Assembly: GCF_014843005.1 (NCBI RefSeq)
Contig: NZ_JACYXM010000004.1
Coordinates: forward strand, 312,530-376,529
DNA length: 64,000 nt
Reading direction: 5' to 3'
Origin: Rhodanobacter sp. DHG33
GTDB taxonomy: Bacteria; Pseudomonadota; Gammaproteobacteria; Xanthomonadales; Rhodanobacteraceae
The notes under the pieces were generated by a model. The model had not been told where the DNA came from, searched no databases, and saw only the letters and a program-made list of their open reading frames with translations. Of the stretch, positions 49,137-58,711 are shown piece after piece. The translations under genes and the position numbers were made by a program. The stretch's first letter is position 1. Each line of letters begins with the position of its first letter.

Positions 49137-50330
49137 TCAAATAACCTGCAGCCGGTCGGCAGCATTGGCGGGCGCCGTGACCACGCGGTTGCGGCCACCG
49201 TGCTTGGCTACGTACAGCGCCTTGTCCGCGCGGCGCAGCGTGGACGACATGTCCCGCTCGTACGATTCAACCTCGGCCACGCCCACCGAGATGGTCAGAG
49301 GCAGGCTGCGGCCATCGATGACTACCGGCCCATCCATCACTGCTTCGCGAATCCATTCCGCCAGGGCTTCGCCGTCGCGGCGCCCAGCTGCCGGGACCAG
49401 CACGATGAATTCCTCGCCGCCCAGCCTTCCGATCATGCTCTCGGGAGGCAAGGCGGCACCCACACGCTGCATCAACGCCTTCAGCGCCTCGTCACCGCAG
49501 TCATGCCCGAAGCGGTCGTTCACGCTCTTGAAATGGTCGACATCCAGCAACAGCAGACAGAACGGCACGCGTGCCACCTCGCTGGCGACCAGCATGCCGG
49601 CGAAGCGCTCTTCCAGCGCCAACCGGTTCGGCACGCCGGTCAACGGATCCGTGCGTGCCATTACGTACAACTCGCGTTGCAGCAACTCGTTGTAGAGCAG
49701 CACGAAACCCAGGCCGTAGAACAGCGGCTGCATGATCGACATGAGCATCCAGAACACGTTGATCGGGCTGGGCGCGTATACGTCCAGCAGCTGCCTGCCC
49801 GTCAGCCACAGCATGCCGTTGCGCCACACCAGCAGTAGCAGCGACAACACGAAAATCCACAGCAGCACGTAGCGCGCCCGCGAGCCATGGTCGCGGCGAT
49901 CGCCAAGCAACGCCTCGATGTTCAGCAGGAGGTTGCATGCGATGGCCACCGAGCCCCACAACACGCGGCTCTGGTAGTCCGGGTCCACTACGGCAAACCA
50001 GGCCACACCACCCCAGCCGACCACGCCCACCGCGATCACGCTGCGCCAGCGCAGCGGCACGCCCAGCAGCATGCGCAGTGCGATCACGCTCATCGCCTGC
50101 GCCAGCAGGTTGAGCGCGTTGCCCCCCAGGGTGATGGCGGCCGGCGGCAGATGCTGCCCGAACGCCAGCGAGGCATAGCCCAATGCCTCCACGGCCAGGG
50201 CCGAAGCCCGCAGGTACAGGCTGCGCACCATCCGGCTCTTGTCCGAACGCACGCCCAGCCACAGCATCAGGGCCACGGTCATGGCCTGCAGCGCGCCGAG
50301 CAACGACAAGCTCTGAACCTGGATAGGCAT
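49137..50330 (-). CDS. Membrane-bound diguanylate cyclase (GGDEF)
   Basis: This 397-aa protein has a membrane domain of about six or seven helices (residues 5-220), and a C-terminal GGDEF domain with RTDPLTGVPNRLALEERF, DVDHFKSVNDRFGHDCGDEAL and the active GRLGGEEF motif. It makes c-di-GMP from GTP. The RxxD inhibitory site five residues before GGEEF is absent (PPES instead), so product inhibition at that site is unlikely. It ends 46 nt before the aroG leader ORF; read-through into that leader is conceivable. Confidence 0.92.
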   Translation of the reverse strand: MPIQVQSLSLLGALQAMTVALMLWLGVRSDKSRMVRSLYLRASALAVEALGYASLAFGQHLPPAAITLGGNALNLLAQAMSVIALRMLLGVPLRWRSVIAVGVVGWGGVAWFAVVDPDYQSRVLWGSVAIACNLLLNIEALLGDRRDHGSRARYVLLWIFVLSLLLLVWRNGMLWLTGRQLLDVYAPSPINVFWMLMSIMQPLFYGLGFVLLYNELLQRELYVMARTDPLTGVPNRLALEERFAGMLVASEVARVPFCLLLLDVDHFKSVNDRFGHDCGDEALKALMQRVGAALPPESMIGRLGGEEFIVLVPAAGRRDGEALAEWIREAVMDGPVVIDGRSLPLTISVGVAEVESYERDMSSTLRRADKALYVAKHGGRNRVVTAPANAADRLQVI

Positions 50331-53649: not shown

Positions 53650-55428
53650 TCACGCTTCCACAAGGCCTTCCGCGCCGACCATCACGCGATTGCGGCCACC
53701 GCGCTTGGCGCGGTACAGCGAAGCATCGGCTTCCGTGCACAGGCGGTGCAGGTCGTGACCGGTGCTCTCGGTGAAGGCCAGACCGATGCTGGCGGACACC
53801 GTCACGACCATGCCGCCGTTGTCCACCACGGCGGCCTCGATGGCTCCGCGGATGCGCTCGGCAACGGCCATGGCCTGTCCGCGCGAACCGTCGACAAACA
53901 GGATGCCGAATTCCTCGCCGCCGAGACGGCCGAACAGATCGGTCGGGCGCAGGTACTGCCGGCAGGCGGCGACGGCACGACACAGCACTTCGTCGCCGAT
54001 GCCGTGCCCGTGGGTGTCGTTGATGCGCTTGAAGTGATCCAGGTCGATGAAGGCCAGGCAGGCATCACCCCGCCGCTTCTCCAGCTGGCGCAAGATGCGC
54101 TCGGCTTCGCCCATGAAATGCTGGCGGTTGTAGATGGCGGTCAGGCCATCGAGGTGGGACAACCGCTTGAAGCGCAGTTGCGAGCGCTTGAGCCGGAACA
54201 TCCACAGCGTGCCGAAACCCAGCGCGGTGAGCAGCAGCGCGAGGTACAGCCGGTTGGCCTCGACCGTCTTGGCATCCAGCTTCTGCCGCACCAGCAGTTC
54301 GGCGTTCTGCTGACTCAGCCTCTCCGTCTCCAGCTTCTGCGCCAGCACGTGCTGCTGCACCGTCTCATAGGCCAGCGCACGCGCATGGACGTCGTCCAGA
54401 TAGGCCTTGTCCAGCGCGGCGAATTTCTCGTGATAGTCGAGCGCGGCGGCAATATCACCCCGCTTTTTCTCGATGCGGTAGAGCACCTCGTAGGTGTCTT
54501 TGAGCCACGCATCGATATCACCCGACTGGCCTTCGGCTACCACGGCCAAGGCGGCTTTCCGGGCGGCGTCATCGTCGCCCAGTGCCGCCAATGCCTGTGC
54601 TCTGTTCACCAAGGCCGACAACTTGTTGGGAACATAACCATTGATATCAAGGCTTGGCTCAGCCTGATCGAGCAACGCAAGCGCCTTGTTCGGCTGCCCT
54701 CCGCGCACATACAGATCAGCAAGTGTGATCATGAGGTTGGTGTTGTACACCGGCTCCTTCGTCGCCGGACAGGCATCGAAAGCCTGTTGCAACTCCGGAC
54801 TGTCAGGTTTGAGCCGGTGCCCGTTGAAGAGTGCCTCAACCAAATAAGAAGCCGGATAGCACGGGCTATCTCCGGCAGGGACAGCCCTCATTGCCATTCG
54901 CGCGTAGCCCAACGCCAGATCGGTCTGTCCGGCTAGACCGAGTGTCGCCGACAAGTTCAACAACAGTGAAAAGCGAACCTTTGCGTCTGTAATCTGAGGC
55001 AAGCGCGCCGCAAGGTGATTGGCCAACTCAAATGCTTCCGTGTAGCGCCGGGTAAGCCCTAATTGGCTCAACAGCAACGCAGATGCGCGCCCCGCCAGCA
55101 ACGGGTCGCCGGAATGCTGAATGATGCCCTGAAACAGGACTTCCGACTTGGGGTAATCGCCCTCGTACATGGCTTCCCATGCATTCAAGAGCTGCAGGTG
55201 CCATTGCTGCTCCGATGTCAGCCCGGAAGCTTGTTGGTTGATCTGCGCCAACAGACCAAGGGATCGCGAATGATCCGTCAGCTGCAAGTCCTCGATCTGC
55301 TTGAGGAGAGCATTCGAGTCGGCGATGCGCGTGGCGGCATAGCCGACCTGCCAGCACAGACAACTGGCCAGACCTATGCCCGCCGCCCAGCGCCGCAGGC
55401 TATTCGACCACCGGGACATGTCATGCAT
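53650..55428 (-). CDS. TPR-GGDEF diguanylate cyclase, inner copy beside the borosin-like genes
   Basis: This protein of about 592 aa has a signal or anchor segment (WAAGIGLASCLCWQVGYAA), roughly 350 residues of TPR-like helical repeats, one TM helix (LYLALLLTALGFGTLWMF) and a cytoplasmic GGDEF domain. The GGDEF domain has an RPTD inhibitory site and GRLGGEEF. It should sense something in the periplasm and make c-di-GMP. Its start is 10 nt after the stop of the putative precursor peptide, so the two are tightly coupled. It is closely related over its full length to the cyclase at 56688-58457. ATG 55419 is an alternative start. Confidence 0.9.
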   Translation of the reverse strand: MHDMSRWSNSLRRWAAGIGLASCLCWQVGYAATRIADSNALLKQIEDLQLTDHSRSLGLLAQINQQASGLTSEQQWHLQLLNAWEAMYEGDYPKSEVLFQGIIQHSGDPLLAGRASALLLSQLGLTRRYTEAFELANHLAARLPQITDAKVRFSLLLNLSATLGLAGQTDLALGYARMAMRAVPAGDSPCYPASYLVEALFNGHRLKPDSPELQQAFDACPATKEPVYNTNLMITLADLYVRGGQPNKALALLDQAEPSLDINGYVPNKLSALVNRAQALAALGDDDAARKAALAVVAEGQSGDIDAWLKDTYEVLYRIEKKRGDIAAALDYHEKFAALDKAYLDDVHARALAYETVQQHVLAQKLETERLSQQNAELLVRQKLDAKTVEANRLYLALLLTALGFGTLWMFRLKRSQLRFKRLSHLDGLTAIYNRQHFMGEAERILRQLEKRRGDACLAFIDLDHFKRINDTHGHGIGDEVLCRAVAACRQYLRPTDLFGRLGGEEFGILFVDGSRGQAMAVAERIRGAIEAAVVDNGGMVVTVSASIGLAFTESTGHDLHRLCTEADASLYRAKRGGRNRVMVGAEGLVEA

Positions 55429-55438
55429 CCGTCGATTG

Positions 55439-55738
55439 TCAGTGCGACGAATCCTGATTTGAGGACGAAGGCGGTGCGCGGTCTGGTTGCTGCGGTGTAT
55501 CGCTTTCGCCGTCCTCTTCGTCATCTCCGTGACCTGGCGCATGCGTCTGAGGTGCTTGCGGCACCTGTTGAATTCCCAGCTCCACGCGCAACGGCGAGCT
55601 GTCTCCCGCCGCCACCGCCGCCGTAAGCTCGGCGCTTGCCTGCACCTGCTCTAGCACACTCTTCAACTCATCGGTTCGCGCATAGCGCAGCGACGCATCG
55701 CTGCCGATGGCTTCCAGCAACTCGATCGTATCGGTCAT
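55439..55738 (-). CDS. Candidate split-borosin precursor peptide
   Basis: This 99-aa protein has a good binding site (AGGGGAAC) and begins 49 nt after the methyltransferase stop. Residues 4-48 form a helical domain (LLEAIGSDASLRYA, then LTAAVAAGDSSPL). The order fits the borosin-binding domain of known precursors: an LG-x-DA-x-L motif, a helix, then a hydrophobic-x-GD motif. Residues 50-99, the possible core and follower, read RVELGIQQVPQAP and then become acidic and Pro/Ser-rich (GHGDDEEDGESDTPQQ). The similarity is by eye and from recall of the family. If correct, backbone amides C-terminal to about residue 49 would be N-methylated by the neighbouring enzyme. Confidence 0.62.
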   Translation of the reverse strand: MTDTIELLEAIGSDASLRYARTDELKSVLEQVQASAELTAAVAAGDSSPLRVELGIQQVPQAPQTHAPGHGDDEEDGESDTPQQPDRAPPSSSNQDSSH

Positions 55739-55787
55739 ATTGTTCCCCTGCCCCTGTCTAAACGGCACAGACGTGCCGCCCCCCGCT

Positions 55788-56606
55788 TCAGGTCGCCATA
55801 TCCAGCGCCTTCAGCCGCTCCAGCATGGCACGGTTCGGTTGCAAGGTCACGGCGGGCGGCAGCACCACCGTTTCCTCGGCGGTCAGCGGCACGTCGGCCA
55901 GTTCGCGCAAGGTTATGCGCTGAATGCGCGGCTGCTCGATGGGCAGCGTGGCGCCGCGGTAGACGATGACCTCGTGATCCGACGGATAGTCCTGCTCCAG
56001 CCGCTCCACCAGCAGGGCGCGGTAGGCCGGTCCGGTGTCGAAGCGACCCACGGAGCGGTTGCCGATCACGCCCACCTGCCACAGCACGAGATAGCCGGCA
56101 GGGTCGATGCGGCGCTCGCAGTACAGCAGCTGGCTGGCCTCGAAATGCTGGCAACCGCATTGGCCCGGGTCGAAGCCAAGGTCGGCGTAGAGGCAATCCT
56201 CGGCGGAAATGCCCGGTTCCATGTGCGCGTCGAAACCCTCGGCGCGGGCCTGCTCGATCACCTTGTGCGGCGACCAGGCGAAGATGCCGGGATGGCCGTA
56301 GAACACGCCGCAGACCCGCTTGCCGGCGCGCAGTTCGTCCATCATCAACGCCACCCACTCGCGGTAGGTTTTCATGCGCGGCTTGCCCTCGGCGTAGTAG
56401 GGCTGCAGGCTGCGCACGTCCGGGTGCATGCGCTTCAGCCACTCTTCCGCAATGGCATCGGACAGCGCCGCGAACACCACGTCTGCCTGCACGATATGGC
56501 TGCGTGCCAGCGGGGTGAGATGGGAGCCCAGCGTCATGCCCAGGCCCACGCAGGCCAGGCGGCCGCGGCCGGGAACGTTCAAGGTGGAGAGGATGGGAGT
56601 CGTCAT
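55788..56606 (-). CDS. Borosin-type peptide alpha-N-methyltransferase (TP-methylase fold)
   Basis: This 272-aa SAM-dependent enzyme has the tetrapyrrole-methylase fold but matches the borosin branch (fungal OphMA, bacterial split enzymes): LACVGLGM for SAM, Arg77 and Tyr81 in GKPRMKTY, Tyr103 in GVFYGHPGIF, PGISAEDCLYADLGFDP and LVLWQVGV. In OphMA the matching Arg and Tyr residues are catalytic. It ends shortly after the methylase domain, without the fused clasp and core found in fungal enzymes, so the substrate must be a separate peptide; the next gene is that candidate. No cobalamin or sirohaem genes are near. TAAGAT lies 6 nt before the ATG and there is no clear Shine-Dalgarno, suggesting a leaderless message. 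Confidence 0.85.
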   Translation of the reverse strand: MTTPILSTLNVPGRGRLACVGLGMTLGSHLTPLARSHIVQADVVFAALSDAIAEEWLKRMHPDVRSLQPYYAEGKPRMKTYREWVALMMDELRAGKRVCGVFYGHPGIFAWSPHKVIEQARAEGFDAHMEPGISAEDCLYADLGFDPGQCGCQHFEASQLLYCERRIDPAGYLVLWQVGVIGNRSVGRFDTGPAYRALLVERLEQDYPSDHEVIVYRGATLPIEQPRIQRITLRELADVPLTAEETVVLPPAVTLQPNRAMLERLKALDMAT

Positions 56607-56687: not shown

Positions 56688-58457
56688 TCAGGCCGGCTCG
56701 AGATCCCCGACACCGGCCATCACGCGGTTACGCCCGTCGTGCTTGGCGCGGTAAAGCGCGGCATCGGCGTCGGCGCAGAGGCGGCGCAGATCGTGGCCGG
56801 CAGCATCGGTGAAGGCGAGTCCGATGCTGGTGGATGCGGTCACGGCCACGTCATCGAATTCCACCACGGTGGCTTCGATGGTGACGCGCATGCGTTCGGC
56901 GATGGCGATGCCCTGCTCGCGCGAGCAATCCACCAGCAGGATGCCGAACTCCTCGCCGCCGAGGCGGCCGAACAGGTCGACGGCACGCAAGTGCTGCTTG
57001 CAGGCAGCGACCATGCAGCGCAGCACCTCGTCGCCCATGGCATGCCCGTGGGTGTCGTTGATGCGCTTGAAATGGTCGAGGTCGATGAAGGCCAGGCAAG
57101 CCGCACCGTTCCGCTTCGCCAGCTGCTGCAGCATGCGTTCGGCCTCGCCCATGAAATGCTGGCGGTTGTAGATGGCGGTCAGGCCGTCGAGGCGGGACAG
57201 CCGCTCGAAGCGCAGCTGCGAGCGCTTGAGCCGGTACATCCACATCGCGGCGAAGCCCAGCGCCATGAGCAGCAGCAAGAGATACAGCCGGCTGGCCTCG
57301 GCCGTCTTGGCGGCCAGCTTCTGCTGCACCAGCAGTTCGGCGTTCTGCTGGCCCAGCCTTTCCGTTTCCAGGTTCTGCGCCAGCACGTGCTGCTGCACGG
57401 TTTCGTAGGCCATCGCACGCGCATGCACATCGTCCAGATAGGCCTTGTCCAATGCGGCGAACTTCTCGTAATAATCGAGCGCGGCGGCGGCGTTGCCCTG
57501 CTTTTTCTCGATGCGGTAAAGCACCTGGTAGGCATCTTTCAACCACGCGTCGATGTCGCCCGACTTTCCCTGGGCAACCACGGCCAAAGCCATCCGCTTG
57601 GCGTCGTCGTCCTGGCCTATGGCGGCCAGCGCCGTTGCCCTGTCCACCTGGGCCGAACGCTGCGCGGGGACATAGCCGTTGGCATCGACACTGGGTTGAA
57701 TGCGGTCGAGCAGGGCGAGCACCTGACGCGGTTGCCCCTCGCGCAGGAGCTCCTCGGCGAGCATGAAATACAGGTTGGTGTTGTACAGCGGCGCCTTGGC
57801 CGCCGGGCAGTCGTCGAAGGCCTGCCGCAATTCCGGGCTGTCCGACTTGAGCCTTTTGCCGTAATAGAGCGCCTCGACCAGGATCGAAGCGGGATAGCAC
57901 TGGCTTTCGCCCGCGGGAACGGCCGCGATGGCCATGCGCGCATAGCGCACCGCCAGGTCGGTCTGGCCCGCAGACCCCATCACCTGCGACAGGTTGGACA
58001 ACAACAAGCGGCGTACCTTGGCGTCCGTGACCTGCGGCAGGCGTGCCGCGACGCGATTGGCCAGCTCGAACGCCTCGGTGTAATGCCGGGCGGCCCCGAG
58101 CTGGCTGAGCAACATGGCCGACGCACGATCCGCCAGGAGCGGATCGCCGGAATGCCGAATGATGTCGTCGAGCAGCGATTCCGACTTGGCGTAATCGCCC
58201 TGGTACATGACTTCCCAGGCATTGAGATAGCGCATCTGCCATTGCTGGGCCGGCGTCAGGCTGGCAGCCTGCTGGTTGAGCTGAGCCAGCACCTGCAGGG
58301 ATCGCGCGTGATCCGTGACCTGCAATTGATAGATCTGCCGGATCAGGGCATCCGGATCGGCCGCGGGCACGGCGGCAAAGCCCGCCTGCCAGCACAGGCC
58401 GGCGGCGAGGCCCACCCACGCGAGCCGCGTCCTGATGCCGCTGAATAGCCAGTCCAT
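56688..58457 (-). CDS. TPR-GGDEF diguanylate cyclase, outer copy
   Basis: This 589-aa protein has an N-terminal signal or anchor (LAWVGLAAGLCWQAGFAA), TPR-like repeats, one TM helix (LYLLLLLMALGFAAMWMY) and a GGDEF domain with RAVD inhibitory site and GRLGGEEF. It is a close paralogue of the protein at 53650-55428: segments such as AAALDYYEKFAALDKAYLDD and LSRLDGLTAIYNRQHFMGEA match almost exactly. ATG 58457 has GGGGGAAG upstream. It ends 81 nt before the methyltransferase start. An in-frame extension upstream of the ATG resembles the methyltransferase C-terminus. Confidence 0.92.
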   Translation of the reverse strand: MDWLFSGIRTRLAWVGLAAGLCWQAGFAAVPAADPDALIRQIYQLQVTDHARSLQVLAQLNQQAASLTPAQQWQMRYLNAWEVMYQGDYAKSESLLDDIIRHSGDPLLADRASAMLLSQLGAARHYTEAFELANRVAARLPQVTDAKVRRLLLSNLSQVMGSAGQTDLAVRYARMAIAAVPAGESQCYPASILVEALYYGKRLKSDSPELRQAFDDCPAAKAPLYNTNLYFMLAEELLREGQPRQVLALLDRIQPSVDANGYVPAQRSAQVDRATALAAIGQDDDAKRMALAVVAQGKSGDIDAWLKDAYQVLYRIEKKQGNAAAALDYYEKFAALDKAYLDDVHARAMAYETVQQHVLAQNLETERLGQQNAELLVQQKLAAKTAEASRLYLLLLLMALGFAAMWMYRLKRSQLRFERLSRLDGLTAIYNRQHFMGEAERMLQQLAKRNGAACLAFIDLDHFKRINDTHGHAMGDEVLRCMVAACKQHLRAVDLFGRLGGEEFGILLVDCSREQGIAIAERMRVTIEATVVEFDDVAVTASTSIGLAFTDAAGHDLRRLCADADAALYRAKHDGRNRVMAGVGDLEPA

Positions 58458-58535: not shown

Positions 58536-58577
58536 CCTGATCCGTACAAGCATGGCATGGTTCGGCCGCAAGGTCAC
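58536..58577 (-). pseudogene. Remnant resembling the 3' end of the borosin methyltransferase gene
   Basis: Compared with 55809-55850 in the methyltransferase gene, 33 of 42 bases are identical and 26 of the last 29. Translated, VTLRPNHAMLVR compares with VTLQPNRAMLER at the methyltransferase C-terminus. Each copy lies 70-80 bp upstream of the next start codon (58457 and 55738). It is probably the scar of a tandem duplication whose outer methyltransferase and precursor were lost. A conserved regulatory element is the alternative. Confidence 0.5.
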
Positions 58578-58711
58578 AGCCGCGGCCGGTGGTCTTCCAG
58601 CGGTTCTTAGGGAATATCGCGACAGCTGGCCCGGCCATCCATGCCATCAGGCACAGTTGCGCCACGCCGCAGCTCGCTAGGCTAGACGCTTTACCCCGCG
58701 AGGAGATGCCC

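Follow-up and report, generated by a model that had tools for sequence, protein, structure and literature searches.

The locus described here lies on the minus strand of a 64,000-nucleotide stretch (the window) of contig NZ_JACYXM010000004.1 from Rhodanobacter sp. DHG33, a soil-type bacterium, and comprises, in gene order, DGC2, encoding a TPR-sensor/GGDEF protein, a gene for a stand-alone methyltransferase, a gene for a small precursor protein and DGC1, a second TPR-sensor/GGDEF gene (Table 1). DGC2 and the methyltransferase gene are 81 nucleotides (nt) apart, the methyltransferase and precursor genes 49 nt, and 10 nt separate the stop codon of the precursor gene from the ATG of DGC1 at 55428. 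The original prediction, made from the letters alone, had recognised a split borosin at this position on the basis of three motifs in the enzyme and of a gene for 99 amino acids (aa) downstream of it; all three motifs (GKPRMKTY, GVFYGHPGIF and GISAEDCLYADL) are present in the 272-aa open reading frame (ORF), and the distance, coordinates, strand and lengths given for the downstream gene were borne out. Its sequences place the pair among the split borosins, as a relative of SonM/SonA of Shewanella oneidensis MR-1, and its precursor is polar with an acidic tail.

Table 1. Features of the borosin locus; positions are those of the window.
Feature	Positions	Strand	Basis or remark
Stand-alone borosin-type peptide alpha-N-methyltransferase, 272 aa	55788..56606	-	phmmer to SonM, E 3e-71
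Precursor of the borosin (99 aa and stop codon), with an N-terminal borosin-binding domain, then a short polar core and an acidic tail	55439..55738	-	Clade profile, hhalign; ATG at 55738, stop codon ends at 55439
Borosin-binding domain (BBD), residues 1-57	55568..55738	-	Predicted helices; SonA-ranked structure matches (weak)
Putative core, residues 58-71 (QVPQAPQTHAPGHG)	55525..55567	-	Inferred from the register with SonA
TPR-sensor/GGDEF protein DGC1	53650..55428	-	GGDEF Pfam E 8.2e-38; start ATG 55428 or 55419; directly after precursor
TPR-sensor/GGDEF protein DGC2, upstream of methyltransferase	56688..58457	-	Sensor 71 percent identical to DGC1 sensor; start codon is our choice
Relic of another methyltransferase gene (3' end), located upstream of DGC2	58549..58586	-	Nucleotide match, 39 columns

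When the window enzyme was compared with the PDB by phmmer, SonM was the best solved match (E 3e-71, 243 bits), the fungal fused borosin enzymes (OphMA, dbOphMA and MroMA) matched through their homologous methyltransferase domain at E 2e-47 to 1e-43, and the sole corrin enzyme listed, of the CobI type, reached E 2.8e-5 (27 bits), so that the comparison of borosin with corrin families proposed at the outset came out on the borosin side. The SonM residues Y58, R67, Y71, Y93, F99 and W166, discussed in PMC8429565, correspond to Y71, R77, Y81, Y103, F109 and W176 of the window enzyme, and these six are invariant in all 14 rows of an alignment of the window enzyme with 13 relatives, down to 45 percent identity. 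The enzyme had been said to stop where the fungal enzymes go on to clasp and core, and indeed the alignment reaches near the end of SonM (query residue 265 on chain residue 255 of 263), with no clasp or core attached. If the enzyme were instead a tetrapyrrole (corrin) methylase, the 99-aa ORF would be unrelated to it. Pfam does assign the enzyme to TP_methylase (78 bits), a superfamily common to borosin and corrin enzymes, and the best NCBIfam model is YabN, though at 35.7 bits against a cut-off of 525; the NCBIfam corrin and siroheme models, however, score 14.6-19 bits against cut-offs of 163-400. The host genome (3.76 Mb, 43 contigs) has three TP_methylase matches, the window enzyme being the weakest of them against the Pfam model. 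In a 19-row tree, which took in 17 of 55 enzyme rows, the other two, labelled by us as CysG-like and RsmI-like, fall outside the borosin set (support 93/96, not starred, with very long branches); clustering with tetrapyrrole methylases, named beforehand as a refutation, did not occur. With the corrin and siroheme models far below their cut-offs and SonM the best solved match, a corrin or tetrapyrrole methylase identity was rejected, and we give it next to no chance. In these comparisons the enzyme groups with SonM and the fungal borosin enzymes, apart from the corrin methylases, and it probably methylates the peptide backbone of a separate substrate.

Neither Pfam nor NCBIfam has a model that matches the precursor at E 1 or better, no signal peptide was noticed in its sequence, and a phmmer search of the PDB with the single sequence gave nothing useful; matches were obtained with a profile alone, built from 17 precursors, mostly of the window precursor's own clade. 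An hmmsearch with this profile gave seven SonA sequences E values between 4e-4 and 1.3e-3 (next match, 2.1), and SonA chains, aligned gap-free with residues 1-61 on 1-61, were its only significant PDB matches. A comparison by hhalign with eight SonA-like precursors gave a probability of 95.5 and E 1.3e-8. The helical domain and the GD motif that the original prediction had placed as in borosin-binding domains were both recovered: the precursor model has five predicted helices (2-13, 15-19, 22-31, 36-44 and 48-53; mean pLDDT 67.6), as has the SonA leader, which spans residues 1-53 (PMC8429565), and the GD pair occupies residues 45-46, the same as in SonA. Foldseek placed SonA in the top two of 13 rows, but weakly (E 2.1 and 3.9). 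The precursor is conserved in relatives: values of pN/pS were below 1 in BBD, core and tail in ten of the ten pairs computed (for the core, over 11-14 codons only), and the possibility of a chance ORF was rejected on these values and on the SonA profile matches. The 99-aa protein is, on this alignment evidence, a remote homologue of SonA, and enzyme and precursor almost certainly form a split-borosin pair.

Behind the BBD, the precursor continues with a polar core, VPQAPQTHAPGHG, and a 28-residue acidic, proline-rich tail. A hydrophobic core is typical of tested borosins, not defining. SonA, in contrast to the window precursor, is 71 aa long, with a short core (residues 62-71) at its end (PMC8429565); tested borosin cores are described as primarily hydrophobic in PMC11285071, and acidic residues are present in type III borosin cores (PMC11395268). 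Two patterns, both picked after inspection of the sequences, recur in the window family: P-[AGC]-x(0-2)-[DE][DE] behind residue 54 in 50 of 82 distinct precursors (mean 10.1 and maximum 19 in 200 tail shuffles), and PQx(1-3)[TSQHN] in 36 of the 82 (mean 17.8, maximum 28); outside the family they were found in 1/18 and 0/18 precursors. Other endings occur as well, namely polyproline at loci L123, L135 and L141, short aromatic or hydrophobic ends at L050, L119 and L120, and long lysine-rich repeat tails, not acidic, at L046:7473-7901 (outside the family) and L137:3901-4185.

Linkage of the three genes was scored for 126 distinct methyltransferases from 123 stretches, the criteria being, downstream and on the same strand, a BBD gene at most 1.3 kb away and a sensor with GGDEF at most 3 kb away; group labels were assigned from record names and family codes, the duplicates L146 and L165 and one 35-aa fragment were excluded from the counts, and L049 and others with less than 3 kb of room from the linkage fractions. 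The window family holds 71 methyltransferases besides that of the window, 69 of them with 3 kb of room, and of these 68 had the BBD gene, 66 the sensor-GGDEF gene and 66 both; the Shewanella-type group, with 27 methyltransferases (locus L191 contributes two, one of which is a fragment), had 26, 27 and 26. Because the BBD and sensor profiles of this count had been iterated on the same loci, it was repeated with an independent sensor profile made from 24 GGDEF-linked rows and applied at E 1e-20, with the BBD at 1e-3; under these strict cut-offs all three genes were found in 66/69 cases of the window family, 25/27 of the Shewanella-type group and 2/24 of the other taxa. Sensor and enzyme also occur together across genomes. 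The enzyme was present, at E 1e-20 or better, in 128 of 197 sampled family genomes and the sensor in 130, that is, in 128/128 enzyme-positive against 2/69 enzyme-negative genomes (Fisher p 5.5e-51, a value that ignores ancestry). For the genus of genome G851 (77 genomes) the enzyme was found in 67 and the sensor in 66, corresponding to 66/67 enzyme-positive and 0/10 enzyme-negative genomes; class-wide, among 370 genomes, the enzyme was found in 11 and the sensor in four, all four enzyme-positive, in a survey that scored at most five candidates per genome and may have missed some. Two genomes, G120 and G180, have the sensor and lack the enzyme. The earlier description of split borosins as known from a few bacteria does not hold against the enzyme's frequency in the family and in the genus of G851. 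From this linkage, the downstream TPR-sensor/GGDEF gene is a conserved third partner of enzyme and precursor, and a functional coupling of the pair with the TPR protein is highly likely. The pair had been said to lie between cyclase genes; both neighbours do encode GGDEF proteins, and the downstream one, whose place as a conserved part of the locus had been missed, is more than mere surroundings.

Both of these proteins have a GGEEF motif and an upstream RxxD and, with the active-site motif present, are predicted diguanylate cyclases. Single Pfam TPR models match both weakly, and the predicted fold of the sensor is TPR-like; the sensor model is a TPR superhelix (pLDDT 91.5) whose closest solved folds are LGN and the pheromone receptors Rap and NprR, nearly tied, with AimR lower. 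Across 24 sensors no column is invariant except for two cysteines, and such a pair would suit a disulfide outside the cytoplasm; a hydrophobic stretch follows the sensor in 136/136 sensors. DGC1 is predicted to be an inner-membrane protein that has a transmembrane helix, with the TPR domain outside the cytoplasm and the diguanylate cyclase domain inside it. The host genome encodes 15 GGDEF domains, and a third one within the window (49185-49658, minus strand) belongs to a 445-aa frame in which the TPR-sensor profile has no match.

SonM/SonA, the type IV split borosin of S. oneidensis MR-1 (PMC8429565), likewise has a stand-alone enzyme, with the same BBD register and gene order, and in a genome that matches the SonM fragment at 100 percent, the gene immediately after SonA is a 596-aa frame containing GGDEF and a sensor of the same family (E 1.3e-55); judged from this frame, the biochemically characterised pair shares the third gene. 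The window enzyme shares 47 percent identity with the SonM-type enzyme of L053 and 46 percent with that of L054; its closest named relatives are from Rhodanobacter (up to 94 percent). The RRNPP receptors Rap, NprR and AimR are comparable to the window sensor in modelled fold only, with eukaryotic LGN tied; they are cytoplasmic, unlike the window sensor, whose TPR domain is predicted outside the cytoplasm and is joined to a cyclase (in relatives, a kinase). Fungal borosins combine enzyme, clasp and core in one chain, whereas the window has separate genes, a split architecture shared with the bacterial borosin types V-X and III (PMC11395268). In RcbB of Vibrio vulnificus the TPR domain represses the protein's own GGDEF output, and its partner, RcbA, is another TPR protein and no borosin precursor (PMC12282931); the word borosin is not present in the text of that paper.

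Loci with a different composition were also found. L086 and L087 carry a fusion of the sensor (independent profile, E 6e-31 and 1e-28) to HisKA, HATPase and receiver domains, and L087 has an additional GGDEF version across the enzyme, on its other side; from the domain content, this is an exchange of output, to a hybrid histidine kinase, under a constant sensor in two related genomes. The gene order is precursor-sensor-enzyme in L052, L086, L087 and L106. Six family loci (L036, L040, L129, L131, L135 and L141) add a precursor and a GGDEF gene with no second enzyme in the stretch read. L040, from Rhodanobacter sp. DHB23, has one methyltransferase, three precursors and five GGDEF-type TPR sensors in tandem, the last of which ends at the edge of the stretch; its whole genome, G022, gave five sensor matches. 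On a 57-row tree with many weak forks and a meaningless root, and with weak kinase cases counted as sensors, five changes in sensor presence were read. In the window itself, the relic upstream of DGC2 (its match scores 46, where 200 shuffles reached no more than 30; VTLRPNHAML against VTLQPNRAML) suggests a decayed tandem copy of the module.

More distant loci differ further. At L089:5928-6812 and L092:4535-5764, borosin-like enzymes lie beside MFS transporters and small ORFs, 70-77 aa long and unannotated, and have no TPR sensor; at L110:2443-5964 (minus strand) an open frame of 1174 aa has a borosin-like methyltransferase domain close to its start and matches nothing else in Pfam at E 0.001. 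A neighbour gene in L119 has a glycosyl hydrolase 79 C-terminal match, below the Pfam cut-off.

We propose that the methyltransferase would bind the helical leader of the 99-aa precursor and N-methylate backbone amides in the stretch behind it, and that enzyme, precursor and the downstream TPR/GGDEF gene would constitute a three-part module. Its most likely role is in signalling: the methylated peptide, or the methylated precursor, would be the ligand of the TPR domain, and its binding would shift the synthesis of cyclic di-GMP (c-di-GMP) or, in proteins with a kinase output, a phosphorelay. The proposal starts from features read in sequences (the enzyme family, leader homology, conserved linkage, co-occurrence and the output exchange in two related genomes) and extends to steps that we infer, namely methylation in this host, cleavage, export, binding and an effect on output. 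That an N-methylated peptide is the ligand of the TPR receptor seems to us close to an even proposition; it is favoured over a sensor that regulates production because outputs have been exchanged under a constant sensor and because precursor and receptor genes have multiplied beside one methyltransferase, and our confidence in this step was lowered slightly as only two firm cases of output exchange remain. The wider proposition is advanced tentatively, at somewhat less than an even chance: Gammaproteobacterial split borosins like that of the window, SonM/SonA included, would be peptide-signalling systems, in which a TPR receptor encoded alongside has as its dedicated ligand a ribosomal peptide with N-methylated backbone and acts on c-di-GMP synthesis or a phosphorelay.

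Several observations weigh against a signalling role. The main weakness is a missing exporter and protease: neither recurs among the 25 largest neighbour-gene clusters listed (BLAST, E 1e-15; functions judged by eye), of which one four-locus cluster resembles an MFS transporter, and a classical cluster for ribosomally synthesised and post-translationally modified peptides, with a recurring exporter or protease, was not seen among them. One Shewanella borosin is reportedly processed by a pepsin-like protease; a search of the host genome for such a protease gave no match, and the control genomes had none either. With no exporter or protease recurring in those clusters and no signal peptide seen, the peptide has no evident route to a sensor outside the cytoplasm. 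Moreover, Pro cannot be N-methylated, and positions 63 and 65 of the window core are Pro and Thr. The residues at these two positions are methylated in SonA (PMC8429565). Sensor charge and tail charge are unrelated (rho -0.05). The list of similar folds also holds RNA- and protein-binding TPR proteins (IFIT1, subunits of APC/C); since TPR superhelices are common, the fold is a lead only and no proof of peptide binding. The placement of the sensor outside the cytoplasm is itself a prediction; an N-terminal hydrophobic criterion of 1.6 was reached by 109/136 sensors, with both window copies below it (1.35 and 1.37). Linkage is looser in the other taxa, where 27 methyltransferases, 24 with room, gave eight BBD genes, eight sensor-GGDEF genes and four cases of both; a sensor was found anywhere within 5 kb in 17/27 and none within 5 kb in 10/27. 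The distant enzymes L089-L094, L109 and L110 are all without a sensor by the profiles used, as is the Luteibacter methyltransferase L045:5953-6804, which lacks a nearby precursor too; G974 has the enzyme without a sensor match, and so, at the threshold used, do seven further enzyme-positive genomes of the class-wide survey. Stoichiometry varies as well: two precursors precede one GGDEF gene in L050, L121 and L140, in several loci, among them that of the window, a GGDEF copy lacks its own precursor, the second copy in L120 has a shortened cyclase, and L119:4402-4949 (minus strand) holds a tandem pair of precursors that differ in their aromatic core ends and lacks a sensor in the surrounding 5 kb. 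Finally, TPR hybrid kinases lie behind enzyme and precursor in L088 and L105, and similar long proteins occur in L107 and L108. The independent sensor profile matches these four weakly (1.6e-7 to 4.6e-13), stronger values having come from a profile iterated on these loci, and the cysteine pair is absent in the three checked (L088, L105 and L107); they are therefore uncertain and were not counted as the same sensor.

Part of this evidence would suit an ordinary split borosin that yields a released natural product, with the TPR cyclase or kinase timing production and sensing something else. Sensor proteins often adjoin genes under their control, and the MFS transporters beside the distant enzymes of L089 and L092 are as expected in product pathways. 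Yet six family loci gained precursor and cyclase while the methyltransferase was not duplicated in the stretch read, no exporter recurs among the clusters listed, and a generic regulator need not be missing wherever the enzyme is missing; we consider this explanation rather unlikely. Alternatively, the precursor could stay intracellular and, once methylated or in complex with the enzyme, modulate the cytoplasmic GGDEF or kinase domain, which would agree with a precursor in which no signal peptide was seen and with clusters among which no exporter or protease recurs; L086 and L087, however, keep the TPR sensor and exchange the cytoplasmic domains, and this arrangement appears quite improbable. 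That the neighbourhood reflects only chance or shared chromosomal inheritance is very improbable: the counts do ignore relatedness, and the Shewanella-type group also conserves a wider neighbourhood, but the linkage persists across groups at 45-48 percent enzyme identity, with changed gene order and different surroundings, and with 15 GGDEF domains in 3.76 Mb a chance adjacency should be rare.

A bacterial borosin product was reportedly described by Crone and colleagues in 2023, and we know of no role assigned to such a product. No text on a link between borosins and GGDEF proteins or diguanylate cyclases was found in the open-access full texts searched; since a GGDEF-containing domain is listed with the borosin architectures in the legend of Figure 1 in PMC11395268, part of the link may already be known. 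A conserved, receptor-like partner gives borosin pathways, including the biochemically characterised locus, a concrete and testable role, and methylation of polar, acidic precursors would broaden the substrate range of these enzymes. With the pair adjoining one type of sensor in many related bacteria, methylated peptides may act as signals; if true, backbone N-methylation would have a use in signalling, and a group of TPR cyclases and kinases would be provided with a class of ligands.
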